Shown here in pieces: positions 26,016 through 35,493 of a stretch of DNA of 64,000 nucleotides. This DNA is from Nonomuraea angiospora (GTDB lineage Bacteria; Actinomycetota; Actinomycetes; Streptosporangiales; Streptosporangiaceae). The notes beneath the pieces are model-generated. The model ran no database searches and had not been told where the DNA came from. It was given only the letters and a program-made list of their open reading frames with translations. The stretch is taken from the NCBI RefSeq assembly GCF_014873145.1, contig NZ_JADBEK010000001.1, positions 2,852,001-2,916,000 on the forward strand. Direction: 5' to 3'. Position 1 is the stretch's first letter. Each line of letters begins with the position of its first letter. Position numbers and translations under genes: made by a program.

Positions 26016-26909
26016 GTGCCGAGCGACCTCATGGAGATTGCTATACGCGAGTTTCGCGTGGTCGCGGAGCGGCGTAAGGAGGGAGCCGAGTCCCGGTCCG
26101 GTGCCGCGGTCCATGCCGTGCGGACGGTCGATGGCGATGCCGCGTACCTCAAGGCCACTCCAGCCGCGTTGGGTGCGCAGGCACTGGCGGCCGCGCGGCG
26201 AGAGCTGCGGTTCTACCAGGACCTCGCACCGGTTGTCCCCGTGCGCACCCCCCGACTCCTCGACTTTCTGGACACCGAGAGAGGTGTAGCCGTACTGCTG
26301 ACGGCCGCAGGCCGGCCCCAAGGCAGCGCGTCCTGGACTCCGGACATGTGGACCAAACTGGGCGAAGACCTCGCCGCCCTCCACTGCATGCCGCTGCCAA
26401 CGGCCGACGGCTGGAACCGGCCCGATGCCTTGCTCGATGCCCTGGATTCCCCTGACCTCTTCGAGGTCACCGCTTTCTGGGCGACCACGCTCCCGCAGCT
26501 CGGCGATCTCCTCACCCGCCGTGCCGAACTCCGGGAAGAGATCACTGCGCTGGCGCCGGCCTTCATCCATGGAGACTGCCACACCGACAACATCGTGCTC
26601 TCGGCAAGCGCGCTCACCTTCTGTGACTGGCAGTCGACCGGAGCCGGTCGGCCCGTCTGCGACCTGGCCTTCCTCAGTGTGCGCACAACCCCCTCGGGCA
26701 CGGTCGTCCCCCGGGCGTTCATGGACGCCTATCTGCATCATCGTCTCTGCGACCGCCGCGTTCTGGAACGCGCCCTGCTTGCGGAAGAGCTCGCCGTCTT
26801 CGTCTTCCTCTGGCCGCCTTACGCGTCATTCAACAGCACGGAAGGGATCGCTCGAGTTCACGCGAGAGCGCGCGAACTCGCAGACCGGTACCTCGGCGGT
26901 GCCCGCTGA
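26016..26909 (+). CDS. Aminoglycoside phosphotransferase (APH)-family protein
   Basis: A 297-residue kinase-like protein starting at GTG 26016, with AAGGAG 8 bases upstream. Catalytic-loop motif HGDCHTDNIV (Brenner's motif, His-x-Asp and Asn) and the metal-binding CDWQ are present, the signature of the APH/choline-kinase superfamily. It should transfer the ATP gamma-phosphate to a small hydroxylated substrate. Divergence from known resistance enzymes is large, so an antibiotic target cannot be claimed. It stands alone, with no obvious partner in the flanking genes. Confidence 0.85.
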   Translation: MPSDLMEIAIREFRVVAERRKEGAESRSGAAVHAVRTVDGDAAYLKATPAALGAQALAAARRELRFYQDLAPVVPVRTPRLLDFLDTERGVAVLLTAAGRPQGSASWTPDMWTKLGEDLAALHCMPLPTADGWNRPDALLDALDSPDLFEVTAFWATTLPQLGDLLTRRAELREEITALAPAFIHGDCHTDNIVLSASALTFCDWQSTGAGRPVCDLAFLSVRTTPSGTVVPRAFMDAYLHHRLCDRRVLERALLAEELAVFVFLWPPYASFNSTEGIARVHARARELADRYLGGAR

Positions 26910-27162: not shown

Positions 27163-27579
27163 GTGGATCCGATCGTTTTGGCTGCGGGCACCGCGCTGGT
27201 GACGGCTATGGCCACCGATGCCTGGCAGTCGGCTCGTGACGGTGCGATCGCGCTGTGGCGTAGGGTCCGCCCCGAGCAAGCCGACATCGTCGAAGCGGAG
27301 CTGGTCGAGGTCCGTGAGCAGCTGCTCGAGGCCCGCCGGGACGGTGACGCCGACACCGAGCAGGCTCTGGTCGGCTCCTGGCAGGTGCGGCTGCAGCAGT
27401 TGCTGCGCGCCGACCCGTCGCTGGCGCAGGAGATCAAACGCGTGGTGGACGAGGTGCTCACCCCGGCGCTGGAGCCGGCCGATCAGGAGCGGATCGGTTC
27501 GCTGGTGATGAAGGCGACCGCGAGCGGGCACGGCCGCGTCTATCAGGCCGGCCGCGACCAGACCATCAACGAGCGCTGA
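27163..27579 (+). CDS. Small helical protein with C-terminal GRVYQAGRDQ-type motif (NLR partner A)
   Basis: A 138-residue protein, mainly helical, starting at GTG 27163 with AGGGGG 6 bases upstream (GTG 27148 is an alternative). Residues about 1-120 form amphipathic helices with a weakly hydrophobic N terminus. The last 15 residues read GHGRVYQAGRDQTINER. The same motif occurs near the N terminus of the next protein and in both proteins of the mirror-image unit at 30.8-33.4 kb. Small proteins with such a terminal motif next to an NB-ARC protein resemble effector partners of bacterial NLRs that signal through short amyloid-like motifs. That reading is inference; the helical domain has no recognised catalytic residues. 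Confidence 0.68.
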   Translation: MDPIVLAAGTALVTAMATDAWQSARDGAIALWRRVRPEQADIVEAELVEVREQLLEARRDGDADTEQALVGSWQVRLQQLLRADPSLAQEIKRVVDEVLTPALEPADQERIGSLVMKATASGHGRVYQAGRDQTINER

Positions 27580-27586
27580 TCATCGC

Positions 27587-30322
27587 ATGCGGATGGAGGG
27601 GCGGGCCTCCGAACAGGGCCGGATGTATCAGGCCGGGCGTGATCTGACCGTCCACGAGACGGTGCTGTCGGCGCTGCGGCCGGTTGAGCAGGTGGCAGCA
27701 CCGCCGCGGACGGTGAATCTCCCTGGGCATGCTGGGTTGTTCGTCGGACGTGCGAATGAGTTAGCTGAGCTGGACGCGGTGCTGCAGACCGGGGGCGAGG
27801 TCGTGGTGGCCGCGGTGCACGGCCTGGGCGGGGTAGGCAAGTCCACGCTGGCCGTGAGCTATGCCCGCGCCCAGGCCAGGAGGCGCAACCCGGTGTGGTG
27901 GATCACCGCTGACAGCCCCACCGCGGTGCAGGCGGGCCTGGCTGCTCTGACGGTCGCACTGCAGCCGGAGCTGACCGCGGCGTTGCCGTTGGAGGCCCTG
28001 GCCGAGTGGGCGTGCGGCTGGCTGGCGGCCCATGACGGGTGGTTGCTGGTGCTGGACGACGTCACCGACCCGGCCGATGTGACGCCGCTGTTGGGGCGTA
28101 CGTTGGCCGGGCAGGTGCTGGTGACCAGTCGGCTCGGACAGGGCTGGCATCGCCTGAGCGCCCACGTGGTGCGGCTGGATGTGCTGAGCGAGGCGGAGGC
28201 GGTCGACTTGGTCACCCAGATCACCTCGGGCCTGAGTCCCGCTGCCGATGCGGGGGCGCATGAGCCCGAAGGCTTGGAGGGGATGCGGGAGCTGGTGCGC
28301 GAGCTGGGCTGTTTGCCTCTGGCGATCGAGCAGGCGGGCGCTTACCTGCACCAGGTCCGGCTGTCCCCGCGCGCCTACCTCGACCTGCTGGTCGAACGGC
28401 CGGCGGTGATGTACGGCCGCGCCGCCCGCGGCTCGGATGCCGAGCGCACCATCGCTCGCATCTGGCGACTGACCCTGGACCGGCTCACCGATACTCCACT
28501 GGCCGGGCAGTTGCTGCGCATCCTCGCCTGGTACGGGGCCGAGCCGATCCCCCGGACCCTGCTGGACGGCCTGGACACCGATGCGGCAGATGTCCAGCAT
28601 GCCCTGGGTGAGCTGGCCGCCTACAACATGATCACCCTCGACAGCGAGCACATCGTCGTGCATCGGCTGGTCCAAGCTGTCGCCCGCACCCCAGACCCTG
28701 ACGACCCCCATCGTCAGACCGCCGACATCGACAACGCCCGCGACCAAGCCACCCGCCTGATCGGCGATGCCATCCCCGAATCGGCGTTGAATCCTGAAGA
28801 CTGGCCGACCTGGCGCACACTGCTGCCGCACATCACCGCTCTGACAGACCATGCCTCTCCCGGCACCGACGCCGTCGCCACCGCCCGACTGCTCAACCAG
28901 ACCGGTGTCTTCCTGGACAACCAGGGCGCCACCGCCGATGCGATCCGCTGCCTCGATCGCGCACGCACGGCCTACGAGCGGGTGCTGGGCGCTGACCACC
29001 CCGAAACCCTGCTCTCCCGCAACAACCTGGCCGCCGCCTACGATTCGGCGGGGGACCTGCGCCGGGCCATCCCGCTGTACGAGGCGACGATCGCTGATCG
29101 GGAGCGGGTGCTGGGTGCCGACCACCCCTTCACCCTGATCTCCCGCAACAACCTCGCGAGCGCGTATGAGTCGGCGGGGGATCTGGGCCGGGCCATCCCG
29201 CTGTACCAGGCGACGCTCGCTGATCGGGAGCGGGTGCTGGGCGCCGACCACCCTGACACCCTGTCCTCCCGCAACAATCTCGCCTACGCCTACGAGTCGG
29301 CGGGGGACCTGCGCCGGGCCATCCCGCTGTACGAGGCGACGCTCGCTGATCGGGAGCGAGTGCTGGGCGCCGACCACCCCTCCACCTTGGCCTCCCGCAA
29401 CAACCTCGCGAGCGCCTACGATTCGGCAGGGGATCCGGGCCGAGCCATCCCACTGTTCGAGGCGACGCTCGCCGACTGTGAGCGAGTGCTGGGCGCCGAC
29501 CACCCCTCCACCTTGGCCTCCCGCAACAACCTCGCGAGCGCCTACGATTCGGCAGGGGATCCGGGCCGAGCCATCCCACTGTTCGAGGCGACGCTCGCCG
29601 ACTGTGAGCGAGTGCTGGGCGCCGACCACCCCTTCACCCTGTCCGCCCGCAACAACCTGGCCGCCGCCTACGATTCGACGGGGGATCTGGGCCGGGCCAT
29701 CCCGTTGTTCGAGGAGACGTTGGCTGATCGGGAACGGGTGCTGGGCGCCGACCACCCTGACACACTGACCTCCCGCAGCAACCTCGCGAGCGCGTATGAG
29801 TCGGCGGGGGACCTGGGCCGGGCCATCCCGTTGTTCGTGGCGACGATCGCTGATCGGGAACGGGTGCTGGGCACCGACCACCCTGACACACTGACCTCCC
29901 GCAACAACCTCGCCTACGCCTACTGGACGGCGGGGGACCTGGACCGAGCCATCCCGTTGTACGAGGAGACGTTGGCTGATCGGGAACGGGTGCTGGGCAC
30001 CGACCACCCTGACACACTGACCTCCCGCAACAACCTCGCCTACGCCTACTGGACGATGGGGGACCTGGACCGAGCCATCCCGCTGTACGAGGAGACGTTG
30101 GCTGATCGGGAACGGATGCTGGGCACCGACCACCCTGACACGCTGACCTCCCGCAACAACCTCGCCTACGCCTACTGGGCGACGGGGGACCTGGGCCGAG
30201 CCATCCCGCTGTACGAGGCGACGCTCACGGCATGCGAACGGGTATTGGGCATCGATCATCCGACAACGCACGTGGTTCGGGCCGATTTACTGCAGGCGAC
30301 ACAACGACGCGATGGCCAATAG
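27587..30322 (+). CDS. NB-ARC/TPR (NLR-like) protein A with 10 identical-length TPR repeats
   Basis: A 911-residue protein seven bases after the partner gene. Residues 11-20 carry the shared motif (GRMYQAGRDL). The NB-ARC ATPase follows: Walker A GLGGVGKST (79-87), Walker B WLLVLDD (152-158), LVTSR (178-182) and GCLPL (241-245), then a winged-helix region with VHRLVQ in the MHD position. From about residue 468 ten TPR repeats of exactly 42 residues run to near the end (G-A/T-DHP...NNLAxAYDSAGDLxRAIPLYE). Such proteins are oligomerising switches that sense a ligand through the TPRs. Together with the motif this fits an NLR-type signalling hub, possibly in antiphage or programmed-death defence; that is inference. 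Confidence 0.85.
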   Translation: MRMEGRASEQGRMYQAGRDLTVHETVLSALRPVEQVAAPPRTVNLPGHAGLFVGRANELAELDAVLQTGGEVVVAAVHGLGGVGKSTLAVSYARAQARRRNPVWWITADSPTAVQAGLAALTVALQPELTAALPLEALAEWACGWLAAHDGWLLVLDDVTDPADVTPLLGRTLAGQVLVTSRLGQGWHRLSAHVVRLDVLSEAEAVDLVTQITSGLSPAADAGAHEPEGLEGMRELVRELGCLPLAIEQAGAYLHQVRLSPRAYLDLLVERPAVMYGRAARGSDAERTIARIWRLTLDRLTDTPLAGQLLRILAWYGAEPIPRTLLDGLDTDAADVQHALGELAAYNMITLDSEHIVVHRLVQAVARTPDPDDPHRQTADIDNARDQATRLIGDAIPESALNPEDWPTWRTLLPHITALTDHASPGTDAVATARLLNQTGVFLDNQGATADAIRCLDRARTAYERVLGADHPETLLSRNNLAAAYDSAGDLRRAIPLYEATIADRERVLGADHPFTLISRNNLASAYESAGDLGRAIPLYQATLADRERVLGADHPDTLSSRNNLAYAYESAGDLRRAIPLYEATLADRERVLGADHPSTLASRNNLASAYDSAGDPGRAIPLFEATLADCERVLGADHPSTLASRNNLASAYDSAGDPGRAIPLFEATLADCERVLGADHPFTLSARNNLAAAYDSTGDLGRAIPLFEETLADRERVLGADHPDTLTSRSNLASAYESAGDLGRAIPLFVATIADRERVLGTDHPDTLTSRNNLAYAYWTAGDLDRAIPLYEETLADRERVLGTDHPDTLTSRNNLAYAYWTMGDLDRAIPLYEETLADRERMLGTDHPDTLTSRNNLAYAYWATGDLGRAIPLYEATLTACERVLGIDHPTTHVVRADLLQATQRRDGQ
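28988..30247 (+). repeat. Ten tandem 126-bp TPR-coding repeats
   Basis: Ten units of exactly 126 bp lie between the first GADHP codon set at 28988 and the last at 30248. Units differ by few bases. A 154-base block at 29354-29507 is repeated identically at 29480-29633, offset by one unit, so two neighbouring repeats are recent duplicates. Confidence 0.9.
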
Positions 30323-30377
30323 TCCGTTTTCGCGATCACGCGAACGGCATGCTTCATCGGTTGGCGATCTCTAGTTA

Positions 30378-30690
30378 TCACTCCTTGCTGGTGAGCTCTT
30401 CGCGCTGGCCGCTTTCGCGGAGCTGTCGCAAGTCGGGAATCTGGTTGTAGAGCGTGCCCGGGCTGACCCCGAGCAGCTTGGCGATCGAGGTGATCGAGTT
30501 CTCCGGGTTGGGTGTCGCGGGCGGCGCGCAGCGGTTCGGGGGTGATGACGGTGGGTCGGCCGCCGGGGGTGGTGGTGTCGAGGGTTCTCGTGCAGGGAGG
30601 TGAAGCCGATCTCGTGCGTGCGGAGTTCGCCGACCATGGTGATGAGGTCGGCCAGGGAACGGCCGTAGCGGTCGAGCGCCGCCTAGGTTT
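30378..30690 (-). pseudogene. Serine recombinase (resolvase/invertase) remnant
   Basis: Read leftward: LDRYGRSLADLITMVGELRT, then an ELRTHEIGFTSLHE stretch, then in a shifted frame LDTTTPGGR, then in a further frame ITSIAKLLGVSPGTLYNQI. This is the order of the C-terminal part of the catalytic domain and the helix-turn-helix of resolvase/invertase proteins. About 40 residues between TTTPGGR and the HTH are missing and the N-terminal half with the active Ser is absent. It lies exactly between the convergent ends of the two NLR-like units. Confidence 0.78.
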
Positions 30691-30778
30691 TTGAAGGCAT
30701 TTCGGGGCTCTGAAGGTGCCTGCTTCAAGATCTTCAAAAAACGATCGTTAAATGAAGCCGCCGCGGATCGTCAATAGA

Positions 30779-32956
30779 TCAACCATCAACACGACCGCGC
30801 TGCCCCGACTGTGTCCGCCTGATGGCCGCTTTGAGGTTTTCCTGGACGACTTGAGTCGTCGGATGGTGCAGTCCAAGCACCCGCTCGCAGTCGGAAACCG
30901 TCGCCTCGTACAGCGGGATGGCCCGGCTCAGGTCTCCCGCCGCCCGGTAGGCGCAGGCCAGGTTGTTGCGGGAGGTCAGCGTTGAGGGGTGGTCGGGGCC
31001 CAGCACCCGCTCCCGTTCGGCGAGGGTGGCCTCGAACAAGGGGATGGCCCGGCCCAGGTCCCCCGCTGTCTCGTAGGCGTAGGCGAGGTTGTTGCGGCAG
31101 GTCAGGGTGTGGGGGTGGTCGGCGCCCAGCACTCTCTCGAAGTCGGACAGTGTCGCCTCGTACAGCGGGATGGCCCTGGCCAGGTCTCCCGCCGCCTCGT
31201 AGGCGCAGGCCAGGTTGCTGCGGGAAGTCAGGGTGCGGGGATGGTCGGCGCCCAGCACCCGCTCGCAGTCGGCCAGCGTCGCCTCGTACAGCGGGATGGC
31301 CCTGGCCAGGTCTCCCGCCGCCTCGTAGGCGCCGGCCAAGTTGCTGCGGGAGGCCAGGGTATTGGGGTGCTCAGGGCCTAGGATGCGTTCTTCTTCTGCC
31401 AGGTTGTGCTCCATCAGCGGGATCGCTCGTCCCAGATCACCTGCCGCATCGTAGGCGTAGGCCAGGCTGGCACGCGTGACCAGTACAGCGGGGTGGTCGA
31501 GGTCGTACACGCGTTGCACCAACGTCATGCACCGCTCCAGGTAGATCAGCGCACGGCCGATTGCCCCCTGGCTCTCCAAGAACAGACCGGTGTTACGGAG
31601 TAGATCGTCAGCATCGATGGCGTCGGTCTCGGGGGACATGCGCTCGAAGACGGCGTCGATGTGGGGCAGCAGCGTCCGCCACTGCGGCCACGAGGCCGGG
31701 ATCTCGTACTCGTGGGGGCGGGCTTGATCCAGTAGCCGGATGGCGCGGGTGCGGGCGGTGTCGATGTCGGTGGCCTGGCGGTGGGGGTCATCGGGGTCGG
31801 GGGTGCGGGCGACGGCCTGGACCAGGCGGTGCACGGTGATGACCGCGTCATCGAGGGTGATCATGCTGTAGGCGGCCAGGGCTCCCAGCGCCTGCTGCAA
31901 CTGCGGGGGGTCGGCCAGGCCGTCCAGGACGCTGCGGGGGATCGGCTCGGCGCCGTACCAGGCCAGGATGCGCAGCAGGTCTCCGGCCAGCGGCGTGTGG
32001 GTGAGCCGGTCCACGGTGAGGCGCCAGACGCGGGCGATGGTGCGTTCGGCGTCATTGCCTTCGGCGGCCTGGTCGTACATCACTGCCGGATATTCGGTGA
32101 GCAGGTTCAGGTAGGCGCGGGGAGTCAGCCGGGCCTGGTGCAGATACGCCGCGGCCTGCTCGATGGCCAGCGGCAGGTAGCCCAGCTCGCGTACCAGCTC
32201 GATCGCCCCGTCCAGAGCTTCGGGCATCTGCGTGCCGGGGGCGGGGGCGTGCTGGCGGGGGGTGGCGATCCGGGTGAGCAGCTCCAGCGCCTCCGCCTCC
32301 TCCAGCACGTCCAGCCGTAGCACCCGGGCGCCCAGGTGGTGCCAGCCCTGGCCGAGCCGGCTGGTCACCAGCACCCTTCCGGCCAGCGTGCGGCCCAGCA
32401 GCGGCGCCACATCGGCCGGGTCGGTGACGTTGTCCAGTATCAGCAGCCAGCCTTCATGAGCGGCCAGCCAGCCGGTGGCCCGCTCGGCCAGGGCCTCCAA
32501 CGGCAACGCGGCGGCCAGCTCCGGCTGCAGTGCGAGCGCCAGCGCGGCCAGGCCCGCCTGCATGCCGGTAGCGCTGTCGGCGGTGATCCACCACACCGGA
32601 TTACACGCCCCGGTCTGCGTGACGGCGAAGTGGGCGGCCAGCGTGGACTTGCCGATCCCGCCCAGCCCGTGCACTGCGGCCACCACCACCGGCCCGCTAC
32701 CGCCCAGAGCCGCCTCCAGGGCGGCCAGCTCATCGCCGCGCCCCACGAACACCTGCCGATGCCCCGGCACGTTCACCGTCGCCGACGGCGCGGCCCTCTC
32801 GCTGACCGGTCGCAGCGCCGCCTCCGGCAGCACCGTCTGATTGACGATCTGGTCGCCCCCGGCCTGATACACGCGCCCCTGACCGGAGACGGTGGCGTCC
32901 AGCTGGACGTGTGACCGCCGGTTCGGGGAATCGGCCGCAGCGGGAGGGGCGGTCAT
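30779..32956 (-). CDS. NB-ARC/TPR (NLR-like) protein B, inverted copy of unit A
   Basis: A 725-residue protein. Residues 27-39 carry the motif GRVYQAGGDQIVN. The NB-ARC domain has Walker A GLGGIGKST (97-105), WLLILDN at the Walker B position (the second acid is replaced by Asn), LVTSR and GYLPL, then a winged-helix part ending in VHRLVQ. About six TPR repeats follow (GADHPxTLTSRNNLAYAY type). It is closely related in DNA and protein to the unit A protein over the NB-ARC and TPR parts. The start overlaps the stop of the upstream small membrane protein (ATGA), so they are co-translated. It converges on unit A with the recombinase remnant between. Confidence 0.85.
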   Translation of the reverse strand: MTAPPAAADSPNRRSHVQLDATVSGQGRVYQAGGDQIVNQTVLPEAALRPVSERAAPSATVNVPGHRQVFVGRGDELAALEAALGGSGPVVVAAVHGLGGIGKSTLAAHFAVTQTGACNPVWWITADSATGMQAGLAALALALQPELAAALPLEALAERATGWLAAHEGWLLILDNVTDPADVAPLLGRTLAGRVLVTSRLGQGWHHLGARVLRLDVLEEAEALELLTRIATPRQHAPAPGTQMPEALDGAIELVRELGYLPLAIEQAAAYLHQARLTPRAYLNLLTEYPAVMYDQAAEGNDAERTIARVWRLTVDRLTHTPLAGDLLRILAWYGAEPIPRSVLDGLADPPQLQQALGALAAYSMITLDDAVITVHRLVQAVARTPDPDDPHRQATDIDTARTRAIRLLDQARPHEYEIPASWPQWRTLLPHIDAVFERMSPETDAIDADDLLRNTGLFLESQGAIGRALIYLERCMTLVQRVYDLDHPAVLVTRASLAYAYDAAGDLGRAIPLMEHNLAEEERILGPEHPNTLASRSNLAGAYEAAGDLARAIPLYEATLADCERVLGADHPRTLTSRSNLACAYEAAGDLARAIPLYEATLSDFERVLGADHPHTLTCRNNLAYAYETAGDLGRAIPLFEATLAERERVLGPDHPSTLTSRNNLACAYRAAGDLSRAIPLYEATVSDCERVLGLHHPTTQVVQENLKAAIRRTQSGQRGRVDG

Positions 32957-33426
32957 CGCTCGTTGATGGTCTGGTCGCCGCCGGCCTGATACACCCGGCC
33001 CTGGCCCGAGGCCTGCGCCCGCATCTGCACGTTCCGCGTGTCATCACCGGTCGAGACGATGCCGGCGTTGTCGCCGCCGATGGCGACCGACCGCTCGCCT
33101 TCGGCCGAGACCTGAGGCGTCCTCTCCCCTGCGGCCGGTGAGTCAGGTGCGGCGACGGCAGCTGCCGGGGCGCGCTCGGTGCGCAGTTGCAGCAGCAACG
33201 CCACCACGGCGACCACCAGCCCGGCCGCGCCGATGAACATGCTGATCACACTGGCCCGCTGATCCAGCACACCCAGCACATCGGCCGACAGGTGCAGCGG
33301 GTCGGCGAAGAACCCGGCCAACCCCACAACCAATAACGCCGTCATCGCCACGATCGCGGCGATCACCATCCATCGCCGGCCCCGCGAACGTGAGGCGGGT
33401 CTGGATCCGACGGCTGTCTTCGACAT
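32953..33426 (-). CDS. Small two-pass membrane protein with C-terminal GRVYQAGGDQ motif (NLR partner B)
   Basis: A 157-residue protein (start ATG 33426; ATG 33450-33452 upstream is an alternative, and neither has a clear ribosome site). Two hydrophobic segments are seen at about residues 20-42 and 55-77, with a short loop between. A Pro/Ala linker leads to a segment reading SVAIGGDNAGIVSTGDD and then the last residues GQGRVYQAGGDQTINER. The final motif matches the N-terminal motif of the NB-ARC protein it is coupled to. A membrane protein with a terminal motif fits an effector that permeabilises or signals at the membrane when an NLR partner is triggered; this is inference. No known effector domain is recognised. 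Confidence 0.68.
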   Translation of the reverse strand: MSKTAVGSRPASRSRGRRWMVIAAIVAMTALLVVGLAGFFADPLHLSADVLGVLDQRASVISMFIGAAGLVVAVVALLLQLRTERAPAAAVAAPDSPAAGERTPQVSAEGERSVAIGGDNAGIVSTGDDTRNVQMRAQASGQGRVYQAGGDQTINER

Positions 33427-33748: not shown

Positions 33749-34876
33749 CTACTGGGGAAGGGCGGGCCTGGCGTCGGTCCAGCCCGAGTCCACGATCGAC
33801 CAGTAGTCCAGCACCCTGCCGGGGACCTGCCACTTCTCGCTGTCCGGGCCCGGTTCGAGCTGGATGTCGCGGCTGCCCAGCAGCTTTCCGGTGCGCTGGT
33901 CGAAGAGCACCTGCTGCTGGATCGTTCCGCGGCCGTCCGCGCTCTCGAACGGGGCCGCGAGAGCGACCGCGGCGCGCCCGAGCGGGTCTTTGACGGTGCC
34001 CAGGCGCTGCACGCCGGGATAGTCGGTGATCAGGCGCATGAGGCCGGCTCGTACCTTGGGCGGGACGGGCGTGTTCGCGAGGAGGGAGAAGACCTGGTCG
34101 AGCACCCCCTTGGGTTCTGTGCAGCCCTTCGGCGCGCCGGTGCGGCCGTCGGCCAGCTTGATCGAGCCCTCGCACAGGAGCTTGCGCAGCTCCTCCGGAT
34201 CGGTGGGCAAGTCCTGGAGTTCCTGGTAGGTGAAGTGACCGAGGCCGCCGATGTTGAACTCGCCGCCGCCCTGGGCGTCCGGGTCGTCCTCCTGCCAGGG
34301 GCCGGGCTTGGACGTGAGAGTCCTGGTGAGGCCCGACGAGCGGATCTGCCAGCTCGACGGGGAGCCCGCCGCGCGCCAGTCGTCGGCGTCGGCGCGGGTC
34401 TGGGGCTTGGCCGGGAAGATGCGGCCGTAGAAGGACGTGCCGTCGCCACGGCTGCGTCCCGTCCATCTGAAGTACTCGTCGCGCTCCTCCACGACGTACC
34501 CGCCGGTCCGGCCGAGCGCGCGCGCCGCGAAGGCGGTGCGCTGGTGCGTGTACCAGTAGCGGCCCTGCTGTTGCAGCTCCGCCTGGGTGGCGGCGGCCAG
34601 CATCATGCCGCGGGGCGATGAGGTGTCCGGGCCGGTCGTCACGCCTGGACGAGGTTGTACGGGGGCGCCGCCGGGCGTGAGCGTCAGGCCCGCCACCACC
34701 GCCGCGGCCGTGGCAGCGGCCACCAGGCCGAGCGGCATGCGCCAGGCACGACGCCGGCGCGCCGGCGGACGGTCGTCCTGGCTCAGCATGCGGCCGCGGG
34801 CGGCCGCCGCGGTGGCCGCGGACGGAGAAGGCGGGTCGTCGTACACGCCACGGACGAGATCCAGTTCGTTCATCAT
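33749..34876 (-). CDS. CU044_5270-family membrane protein, ECF sigma partner
   Basis: A 375-residue protein with an N-terminal cytosolic segment, one transmembrane helix at about residues 46-66 (MPLGLVAAATAAAVVAGLTL) and a large extracytoplasmic part. The architecture and position directly after an ECF sigma factor gene match the CU044_5270 family, widespread in actinomycetes. The start overlaps the sigma factor stop (TGATG), so they are co-translated. A role as regulator or sensor of the sigma factor is plausible, but classical ZAS anti-sigma Cys/His residues are not visible. Confidence 0.8.
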   Translation of the reverse strand: MMNELDLVRGVYDDPPSPSAATAAAARGRMLSQDDRPPARRRRAWRMPLGLVAAATAAAVVAGLTLTPGGAPVQPRPGVTTGPDTSSPRGMMLAAATQAELQQQGRYWYTHQRTAFAARALGRTGGYVVEERDEYFRWTGRSRGDGTSFYGRIFPAKPQTRADADDWRAAGSPSSWQIRSSGLTRTLTSKPGPWQEDDPDAQGGGEFNIGGLGHFTYQELQDLPTDPEELRKLLCEGSIKLADGRTGAPKGCTEPKGVLDQVFSLLANTPVPPKVRAGLMRLITDYPGVQRLGTVKDPLGRAAVALAAPFESADGRGTIQQQVLFDQRTGKLLGSRDIQLEPGPDSEKWQVPGRVLDYWSIVDSGWTDARPALPQ

Positions 34877-35493
34877 CAGGCCTCTTCCTCATCGAGCAGG
34901 GGGTTCGTGTCGCCCAGCGCCTTGCGCAGCTTCTTGCGAGCGCGGTTGAGCCGCGAGGACACCGTGCCGAAGGGCACGTCCAGCGCCTGCGCCACCTCGT
35001 CGTAGCTCAGCCCGGCGAGCGCCACCAGCAGCAGCACGTCGCGCTGGGCGGCGGGCAGGGCGGCGATGGCGCCGGCCAGCGGGCCTTTGACACTTTGTTG
35101 CGCGCTCACCTTGGCCGTCACCTCGTCCTCGTGGCCCCGGGCCGGCTCCGGCAGGGGATGCAGCCGATCCACGGCCCGGAGCAGACGCACCTCGTCGCGG
35201 CGGTGCCGGCTGATGAGGTTGGTCGCGATGCCGTACAGCCAGGGGCGGGCGCTGCGCCGGCTCAGGTCGTAGCGGCGGCGTTGGCGGAAGGCGAGGGCGA
35301 ACGTCTCGGCGGACACGTCGTCGGCGGCGTGCGGGCCGAGCCGCCGGGAGGCGTACCGGTGGATGTCCGCGTAGTGGGCGTCGAAGACGGCGGCGAAACG
35401 TTCGGGCTCGTCCCAGGACCGCTTGATCGTCACGGCGTCGTCCTGCGACGGTGTGGCGGCACCCGTAGGAGCAGTCAGGTGTGGCTCATGCAT
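34876..35493 (-). CDS. ECF-type RNA polymerase sigma factor
   Basis: A 205-residue protein with region 2 (HYADIHRYASRRLG, then DVSAETFALAFRQR and WLYGIATNLISRHRR) and region 4 (LPAAQRDVLLLVALAGLSYDEVAQALDVPFGTVSSRLNRARKKLRK). It lacks regions 1.1 and 3, as expected for an ECF factor. It should direct RNA polymerase to a small regulon, probably including its own operon. The coupled downstream membrane protein likely sets its activity. ATG 35493 is the best start. Confidence 0.92.
   Translation of the reverse strand: MHEPHLTAPTGAATPSQDDAVTIKRSWDEPERFAAVFDAHYADIHRYASRRLGPHAADDVSAETFALAFRQRRRYDLSRRSARPWLYGIATNLISRHRRDEVRLLRAVDRLHPLPEPARGHEDEVTAKVSAQQSVKGPLAGAIAALPAAQRDVLLLVALAGLSYDEVAQALDVPFGTVSSRLNRARKKLRKALGDTNPLLDEEEA

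Follow-up and report, generated by a model that had tools for sequence, protein, structure and literature searches.

Two convergent effector-receptor units of Nonomuraea angiospora share a terminal motif in the layout of NLR-associated amyloid signalling systems

A stretch of 64,000 nucleotides from Nonomuraea angiospora was analyzed as a whole and is called the window here (contig NZ_JADBEK010000001.1, positions 2,852,001 to 2,916,000). Within its positions 27163-33426 lie two convergent two-gene units, effector A followed by NLR1 on the + strand and effector B followed by NLR2 on the - strand. In each unit a small protein, the putative effector, is encoded next to a NOD-like receptor (NLR). 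All four proteins carry the same short motif, at the C terminus of the effector and near the N terminus of the receptor; an earlier note, made from the letters of the window, had placed the motif at these positions, and the open reading frames (ORFs) and their translations confirmed this. The two units probably belong to the NLR-associated amyloid-signalling systems as receptor/effector modules, with two effector types built on a common motif. The strongest evidence for this comes from relatives of the two effectors, in which the motif class of the effector and that of the next gene change in step.

Two units with one motif

Two of the features by which a pair of bacterial amyloid signalling sequences (BASS) is recognized were found in both units: a small protein whose C-terminal motif recurs at the N terminus of the adjacent NLR, and a receptor with an NB-ARC domain and repeats. 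The two genes of unit 1 are spaced by 7 bp, and those of unit 2 overlap by 4 bp, the stop of effector B lying over the start of NLR2. The parts of the two units are as follows.

27163..27579, + strand: effector A, 138 aa, GTG start, C-terminal end GRVYQAGRDQTINER
27508..27576, + strand: terminal motif of effector A, MKATASGHGRVYQAGRDQTINER (coordinates derived from the ORF)
27587..30322, + strand: NLR1, 911 aa, motif GRMYQAGRDLTVHE from residue 11
27593..27658, + strand: motif near the N terminus of NLR1, MEGRASEQGRMYQAGRDLTVHE, in DNA repeat D9
27767..28354, + strand: NB-ARC domain of NLR1, residues 61-256 (Pfam PF00931, E 2.4e-07, above cut-off)
30779..32956, - strand: NLR2, 725 aa, motif GRVYQAGGDQIVN from residue 27
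32837..32902, - strand: motif near the N terminus of NLR2, LDATVSGQGRVYQAGGDQIVNQ, in DNA repeat D8
32132..32686, - strand: NB-ARC domain of NLR2, residues 91-275 (Pfam PF00931, E 8.4e-08, above cut-off)
32953..33426, - strand: effector B, 157 aa, two predicted membrane helices and an unstructured linker, C-terminal end GRVYQAGGDQTINER
33310..33366, - strand: first membrane helix of effector B, residues 21-39 (Kyte-Doolittle 2.60; a helix in the low-confidence model)
33193..33249, - strand: second membrane helix of effector B, residues 60-78 (Kyte-Doolittle 2.72; a helix in the low-confidence model)
33031..33099, - strand: second stretch of effector B that is Gly-rich and repeat-like, GERSVAIGGDNAGIVSTGDDTRN, conserved ahead of the terminal motif in relatives with two transmembrane helices (2-TM relatives)
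32956..33024, - strand: terminal motif of effector B, MRAQASGQGRVYQAGGDQTINER

Effectors A and B can be aligned only across their final 23 residues, 19 of which are identical. Their motif DNA is the closest pair among the copies; over 22 codons, 13 are identical, 5 differ synonymously and 4 non-synonymously, and all four copies of the motif diverge at synonymous sites as well. From copy to copy, the DNA that surrounds the motif is 70-79% alike (repeats D8, D9 and I17-I20), and parts of the NLR1 gene recur in inverted orientation in the NLR2 gene at 71-81%, the longest pair of arms being 776 nt at 80%.

The spread of the motif was examined in 54 genomes of the genus with a DNA pattern for G-x-[ILMVF]-[mostly aromatic]-Q-A-G-x-D, and the reversed pattern served as control. 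The pattern was found at 52 places in 27 of the 54 genomes, and the reversed pattern at 2 places. At 29 places it ends an ORF of at least 100 aa, with exactly 6 residues past the D in 28 and with 5 in one, and at two others it ends frames of only 24 and 33 aa that are broken or miscalled. Eight places are N-terminal in ORFs of 651-1263 aa, six of them at residues 11-29 and two at 114 and 153; one of the eight is a fusion (L074) described below. A small-protein end or an NLR-like start thus accounts for 37 of the 52 places, and the tally is completed by 2 small proteins with extensions, 1 unclear frame and 10 places that are unrelated or outside an ORF. Neighbouring downstream NLRs without the exact pattern often bear the variants VYQAARDQ or VYQAAGDQ. 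Among 240 proteins related to the two effectors, namely the 120 best of 131 in one set and of 573 in the other, the exact pattern stands six residues from the end in 129, five from the end in 10 and elsewhere in 10, and is absent from 91.

The likeness of the DNA around the motif copies is what would be seen if DNA duplication or gene conversion between adjacent genes had left the common motif behind without any function. This explanation is scarcely credible, however, in view of the synonymous differences between the copies, the constant distance to the stop in 28 of the 29 C-terminal ORFs, and the same pairing rule in other motif classes and other genera, which is described in the next section.

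Three matches to the genus pattern (L049, L061 and L073) have an internal stop and stand in near-identical DNA in three genomes (GGCCTGATCTTTCAGGCTGG); this is perhaps a conserved non-coding element.

Effector and receptor motifs change class in step

The small unfused 2-TM relatives of effector B with a recognizable tail fall into four motif classes, and the next gene begins with the matching class. In class i the tail VYQAGGDQTIN is followed by a next-gene start VYQA-x-x-DQ. Class ii resembles the RIP homotypic interaction motif (RHIM) and the BASS3 motif, and has the tail KYVVDLRHAHAVQVGEHLTQHN and the next-gene start QYVIDARTATGVQIGEGNTQII. The tail GDHIEFHHNTF-x-GTVIGKQV of class iii goes with the start GDHIEFHHNLIEKAVGVEHHH, and the tail LNMPAAGGTVNAVQGGTLNIH of class iv with VNAPGAGGVVNAVQDGVLNVH. 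Two of the 23 pairs of family B are unmatched (L078 and L112), and in L078 the next gene seems to be without its N-terminal part. One type of NLR body, IVEGDIPQRPPGFQPR with small variations, is found with class i in L052, L064, L068 and L070 and with class iii in L041, L079, L081, L082, L084 and L110, so the motif is not dictated by the NLR body. Further matched classes were seen in the effector A family: QFIAGRD, AVQGxGVQ, VIQVGGN with IIQIAGN, and GDDIRVSG.

The matching was measured on 79 pairs (56 of family A, 23 of family B) kept from 180 domain matches (103 A, 77 B). The matches dropped were fused or had long tails (23), were duplicates (19), were cut by contig ends (16), had short tails (3), or had no downstream frame of at least 150 aa starting at -40 to +60 nt (40). 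In a class-free permutation, with partners shuffled within each family, the mean local score was 56.0 for the true pairs vs 33.9 for shuffled ones (standard deviation 1.67, maximum 40.6), and the observed score was attained in 0 of 10,000 shuffles; the test ignores the common ancestry of the loci. A score of at least 30 was reached by 58 of the 79 true pairs. When classes were assigned by regular expressions, which were composed after the sequences had been seen, all 50 pairs classed on both sides agreed, while 11 were classed on one side only and 18 on neither. Among the one-sided pairs, L155, L158, L170, L174 and L082 match by eye outside the expression, L150 has a frameshifted effector, and the frame chosen for L159, L160, L169, L194 and L202 does not begin like an NLR. 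On maximum-likelihood trees made without the motif, which are short and in part weakly supported, the minimum number of class changes was 9 for the effector and 6 for the NLR body in family B (20 pairs), and 6 and 7 in family A (30 pairs).

The earlier note had read a BASS-like layout into the window, with the motif at the effector C terminus and the NLR N terminus of adjacent genes. This layout proved to be real and general across the relatives, and the enrichment of the motif in pairs with adjacent NB-ARC genes that the note anticipated was found together with switching of motif class in step. At the level of sequence, then, the identity, position, pairing and in-step switching of the motif are established.

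Several observations, together with the limits just given for the permutation, the regular expressions and the trees, weigh against the amyloid-signalling interpretation. There is no better-scoring stranger for only 12 of the 79 true partners (median rank 8), which is no proof of unique matching, although so low a count is expected since many loci share a class. Some pairs have no recognizable match, for example L187, L207 and L222, with FA-x-QGG tails vs YG-x-IGAD. No two-unit residue code within the motif class separates the two units of the window, and several motif-bearing effectors have no adjoining NLR. The VYQAG class of the window gave an hhalign probability of 0.2% against RHIM/BASS3, an absence of similarity that says little since the profiles are very short, and its profile had no relevant match in the PDB.

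The two effectors and their domains

In the AlphaFold model of effector A there are six confident helices, with a predicted local distance difference test score (pLDDT) of 77-95 over residues 1-120 and below 50 over the tail, residues 123-138. The tail is predicted to lie outside the folded part, and the possibility that the motif belongs to a globular domain, which would have told against the earlier note, does not hold for effector A. The first helix, residues 4-18, is hydrophobic (Kyte-Doolittle 1.93) and strongly conserved among relatives, so effector A may also act on membranes. The idea of two effector types, one helical and one with two membrane helices, is supported by the predictions for the two proteins. 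The partner that the same note called soluble and helical agrees in its six predicted helices, but begins with this conserved hydrophobic helix.

Of 345 genomes of the order, 86 contain relatives of the effector A domain (112 aa, motif excluded), and these relatives occur in 23 of 70 genera; 30 of the matches were obtained as loci and 60 fetched as regions, and the remainder, mostly weaker, were left out. Effector A had no informative match in the PDB. Neither effector had a Pfam or NCBIfam match above the curated cut-off, or a PADLOC match at E<=0.1. Compared by hhalign with a BELL profile made from 8 sequences that were taken as BASS3-BELL from their tails, effector A gave a probability of 5.9%, or 9.6% with a broader profile, and the reversed control gave 0.6%. 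In a group of loci (L187, L190, L198, L207, L210 and L222), effector A-type tails are unlike the conserved start of the next gene, YG-x-IGAD-[LI]-HVF; this is possibly heterotypic pairing.

The predicted model of effector B consists of two long helices only (mean pLDDT 58.2). The query held one extra residue before the true start in the model, the search for relatives, the NCBIfam scan, the alignment and the 2-TM-domain search, and a longer frame was used in the Pfam scan. With the motif excluded, the 2-TM part (105 aa) has relatives in 48 of the 345 genomes of the order, and in the alignment of relatives the second Gly-rich stretch is conserved 5' of the terminal motif. Effector B resembles CyanoTRADDas_TM (PF20712), a 2-TM domain of bacterial conflict systems, in its two membrane helices and in a weak match (E 0.055), but the match is below the curated cut-off (14.0 vs 24.3 bits).

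In many loci the 2-TM domain stands within long P-loop frames (e.g. L096, L097, L098, L101, L105, L106, L108 and L109), and in L074 (2147-4873) and L085 the 2-TM domain, the motif and the NLR body are fused in a single frame. When ten such fusion frames were scanned, TPR_12 was above the cut-off in all ten. NB-ARC was above it in L074, L109, L116 and L120, below it in L119, L121 and L128, and unlisted for L108, L124 and L130. Because it is fused directly to NTPase-TPR receptors, the 2-TM domain is presumably an effector domain. Covalent fusion and a common motif would be alternative links to a receptor, a pattern to be expected of such a domain.

Tandem motif classes, a VYQA-type followed by a GDH-x-EF type, were seen in the 2-TM effectors of L110, L041, P0031, P0059, P0067 and P0095. 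In the tandem-motif loci L041 and L110 the next gene pairs with the final motif.

The receptors

Both NLRs have NB-ARC and TPR_10/TPR_12 above the Pfam cut-offs, with 11 TPR_10 stretches in NLR1 and 6 in NLR2. Both also match NCBIfam NF040586, 'FxSxx-COOH system tetratricopeptide repeat protein', above its cut-off of 300 (538.5 and 375.3 bits). This match would agree with an FxSxx-COOH peptide-modification system, of which the window NLRs would be a part and the small proteins the peptides or accessory proteins. Such an origin is very improbable, however: FxsB is above its cut-off only once in the genome (471 bits), at about 4.94-4.95 Mb, where the best FxSxx_TPR match of the genome (1000.7 bits) stands with it, whereas the window lies at 2.852-2.916 Mb. 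The window NLR bodies are like the TPR protein of this system in their NF040586 scores, and differ from it in that FxsB is not near but some 2 Mb off. Effectors A and B end in TINER, not in FxSxx, though other nearby peptides were not searched for. The NF040586 name is probably misleading for the window NLRs.

Relation to known amyloid signalling systems

The layout of these putative modules is already known from published BASS-type signalosomes, and the BASS/BELL-NLR amyloid signalosomes of multicellular bacteria are reportedly the subject of a paper by Dyrka et al. of 2020 in J Mol Biol. What appears to be new in the literature searched, so far as its available text goes, is a family of 2-TM effectors whose tails fall into at least four motif classes, each in step with that of the receptor; part of this may already be in the Dyrka et al. 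2020 paper. In the available text of PMC7889193, PMC8086366, PMC9815663 and PMC12261475, BASS/BELL-NLR signalosomes share with the window adjacent genes, an effector C-terminal and NLR N-terminal motif, an NLR-type receptor, a small effector and an occurrence in filamentous actinobacteria. The window differs in having two convergent units on one motif class, and BELL is described as a helical bundle whereas effector B is predicted to have two membrane helices. Four strings that were looked for occur in none of the papers searched; QAG, YQA and VYQ are absent from the main text of PMC8086366, and QAG is absent from PMC12261475. The VYQAG class is here neither assigned to BASS1-10 nor called new.

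A link to the RHIM is seen among relatives of effector B. In L091, L100 and L104 the tails of the 2-TM relatives are RHIM-like, with a VQVG core, and the adjoining genes begin with VQIG. Class ii is likened here to the BASS3 peptide tabulated in PMC8086366, which gives amyloid-like aggregates according to the available text of that paper. The class ii protein P0096 is called 'RIP homotypic interaction motif-containing protein' by NCBI, although the Pfam and NCBIfam scans list no RHIM model for it. When a profile of class ii and BASS3-type sequences was compared with the PDB, only two sequences matched at E<=10. Both are RIPK3, with the match at the VQVG core and E values of 0.66 and 0.94; they are suggestive of a RHIM link but not significant alone. 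The likeness to the BASS3/RHIM/fungal PP motif thus consists of a BASS3-like motif on 2-TM relatives in other genera of the family, with the next gene matching. The VYQAGxDQ motif of the window is unlinked to it by profile, and the Q-x-G core is common by eye only.

If the units are amyloid-signalling modules, the NB-ARC/TPR receptor, to judge by its domain family, would sense a cue via its TPRs and oligomerize. The oligomer would gather the N-terminal motifs and so nucleate a beta-arch or amyloid-like fold. This fold would template the effector C-terminal motif, which matches it by sequence, and the effector domains would cluster. Effector B would then act through its two membrane helices, and effector A through its helical domain with the hydrophobic first helix; the likely outcome would be membrane damage and the death or dormancy of the compartment. 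Our inference of these steps, from oligomerization and amyloid templating to membrane damage and cell death, draws on the NB-ARC/NLR family and on the available text of PMC7889193, PMC8086366, PMC7885112 and PMC9815663. As both units use one motif class, they may cross-activate.

Effector-associated adaptor domains have been described in other bacterial conflict systems. By analogy the motif could be a non-amyloid matching adaptor, in the shape of a short beta-strand or beta-helix by which one effector docks to one NLR. The matching, the in-step switching and the disordered tail demonstrate pairing, not fibril formation, and the second conserved Gly-rich stretch of effector B could make a small beta-helix. 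However, one of the interchangeable motifs is RHIM/BASS3-like, and the BASS3 peptide is one that aggregates in amyloid-like form (PMC8086366, available text); the motifs are also short, contain Gly, Gln and Asn, and have low model confidence in monomers. We consider docking by an adaptor of this kind unlikely.

Opposed units and effectors without an adjoining NLR

Downstream of the 2-TM unit, a convergent NB-ARC gene related to those of the window is found in the window itself, in L041, L052 and L068, and as a TPR remnant in L064. None was found within the stretches fetched for L034 and L070, and the remaining loci do not extend far enough. The opposed unit has effector A as its effector in the window; in L052/L150 this protein is frameshifted, and in L068 a more distant relative of effector A takes its place.

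The effectors without an adjoining NLR include small 2-TM proteins of another type that have the same terminal motif (L044, L048, L050, L056, L060, L062 and L065). No P-loop ORF was found among the ORFs called in the 6.8-12.1 kb fetched around them, and it is possible that these proteins are effectors acting in trans. A thiolase-like gene, named by eye from its sequence, is a neighbour in 6 of these 7 loci. In L043 and L071, which are mutually syntenic, effector A relatives carry the motif and have no adjacent NLR; a P-loop ORF lies about 2 and 4 kb away.

The genes that flank the two units of the window, at 26016-26909 and 34876-35493, encode an APH-family phosphotransferase and a sigma-70 family sigma factor that is extracytoplasmic function (ECF)-like.

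Implications

As a tentative extension, actinomycete NLRs could use an exchangeable plug code of terminal motifs, RHIM-like motifs included. 2-TM and helical effectors would re-pair with receptors in step, and many systems of different code would be insulated from one another within one cell. Units of the same code would be networked, and NLR-less effectors at conserved chromosomal sites would be fired in trans. If this were true, one receptor could fire two effector types in same-code units such as those of the window. The in-step switching over many loci has the character of a natural experiment, and it points to the motifs as what chooses the effector fired by a receptor; here it concerns a 2-TM effector family that is not mentioned in the bacterial amyloid-signalling literature searched, within its available text. 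Relatives of this membrane domain that carry the RHIM-like motif would connect bacterial NLRs with the necroptosis motif. The locus itself, with near-identical motifs on different effectors, is a testable pair.

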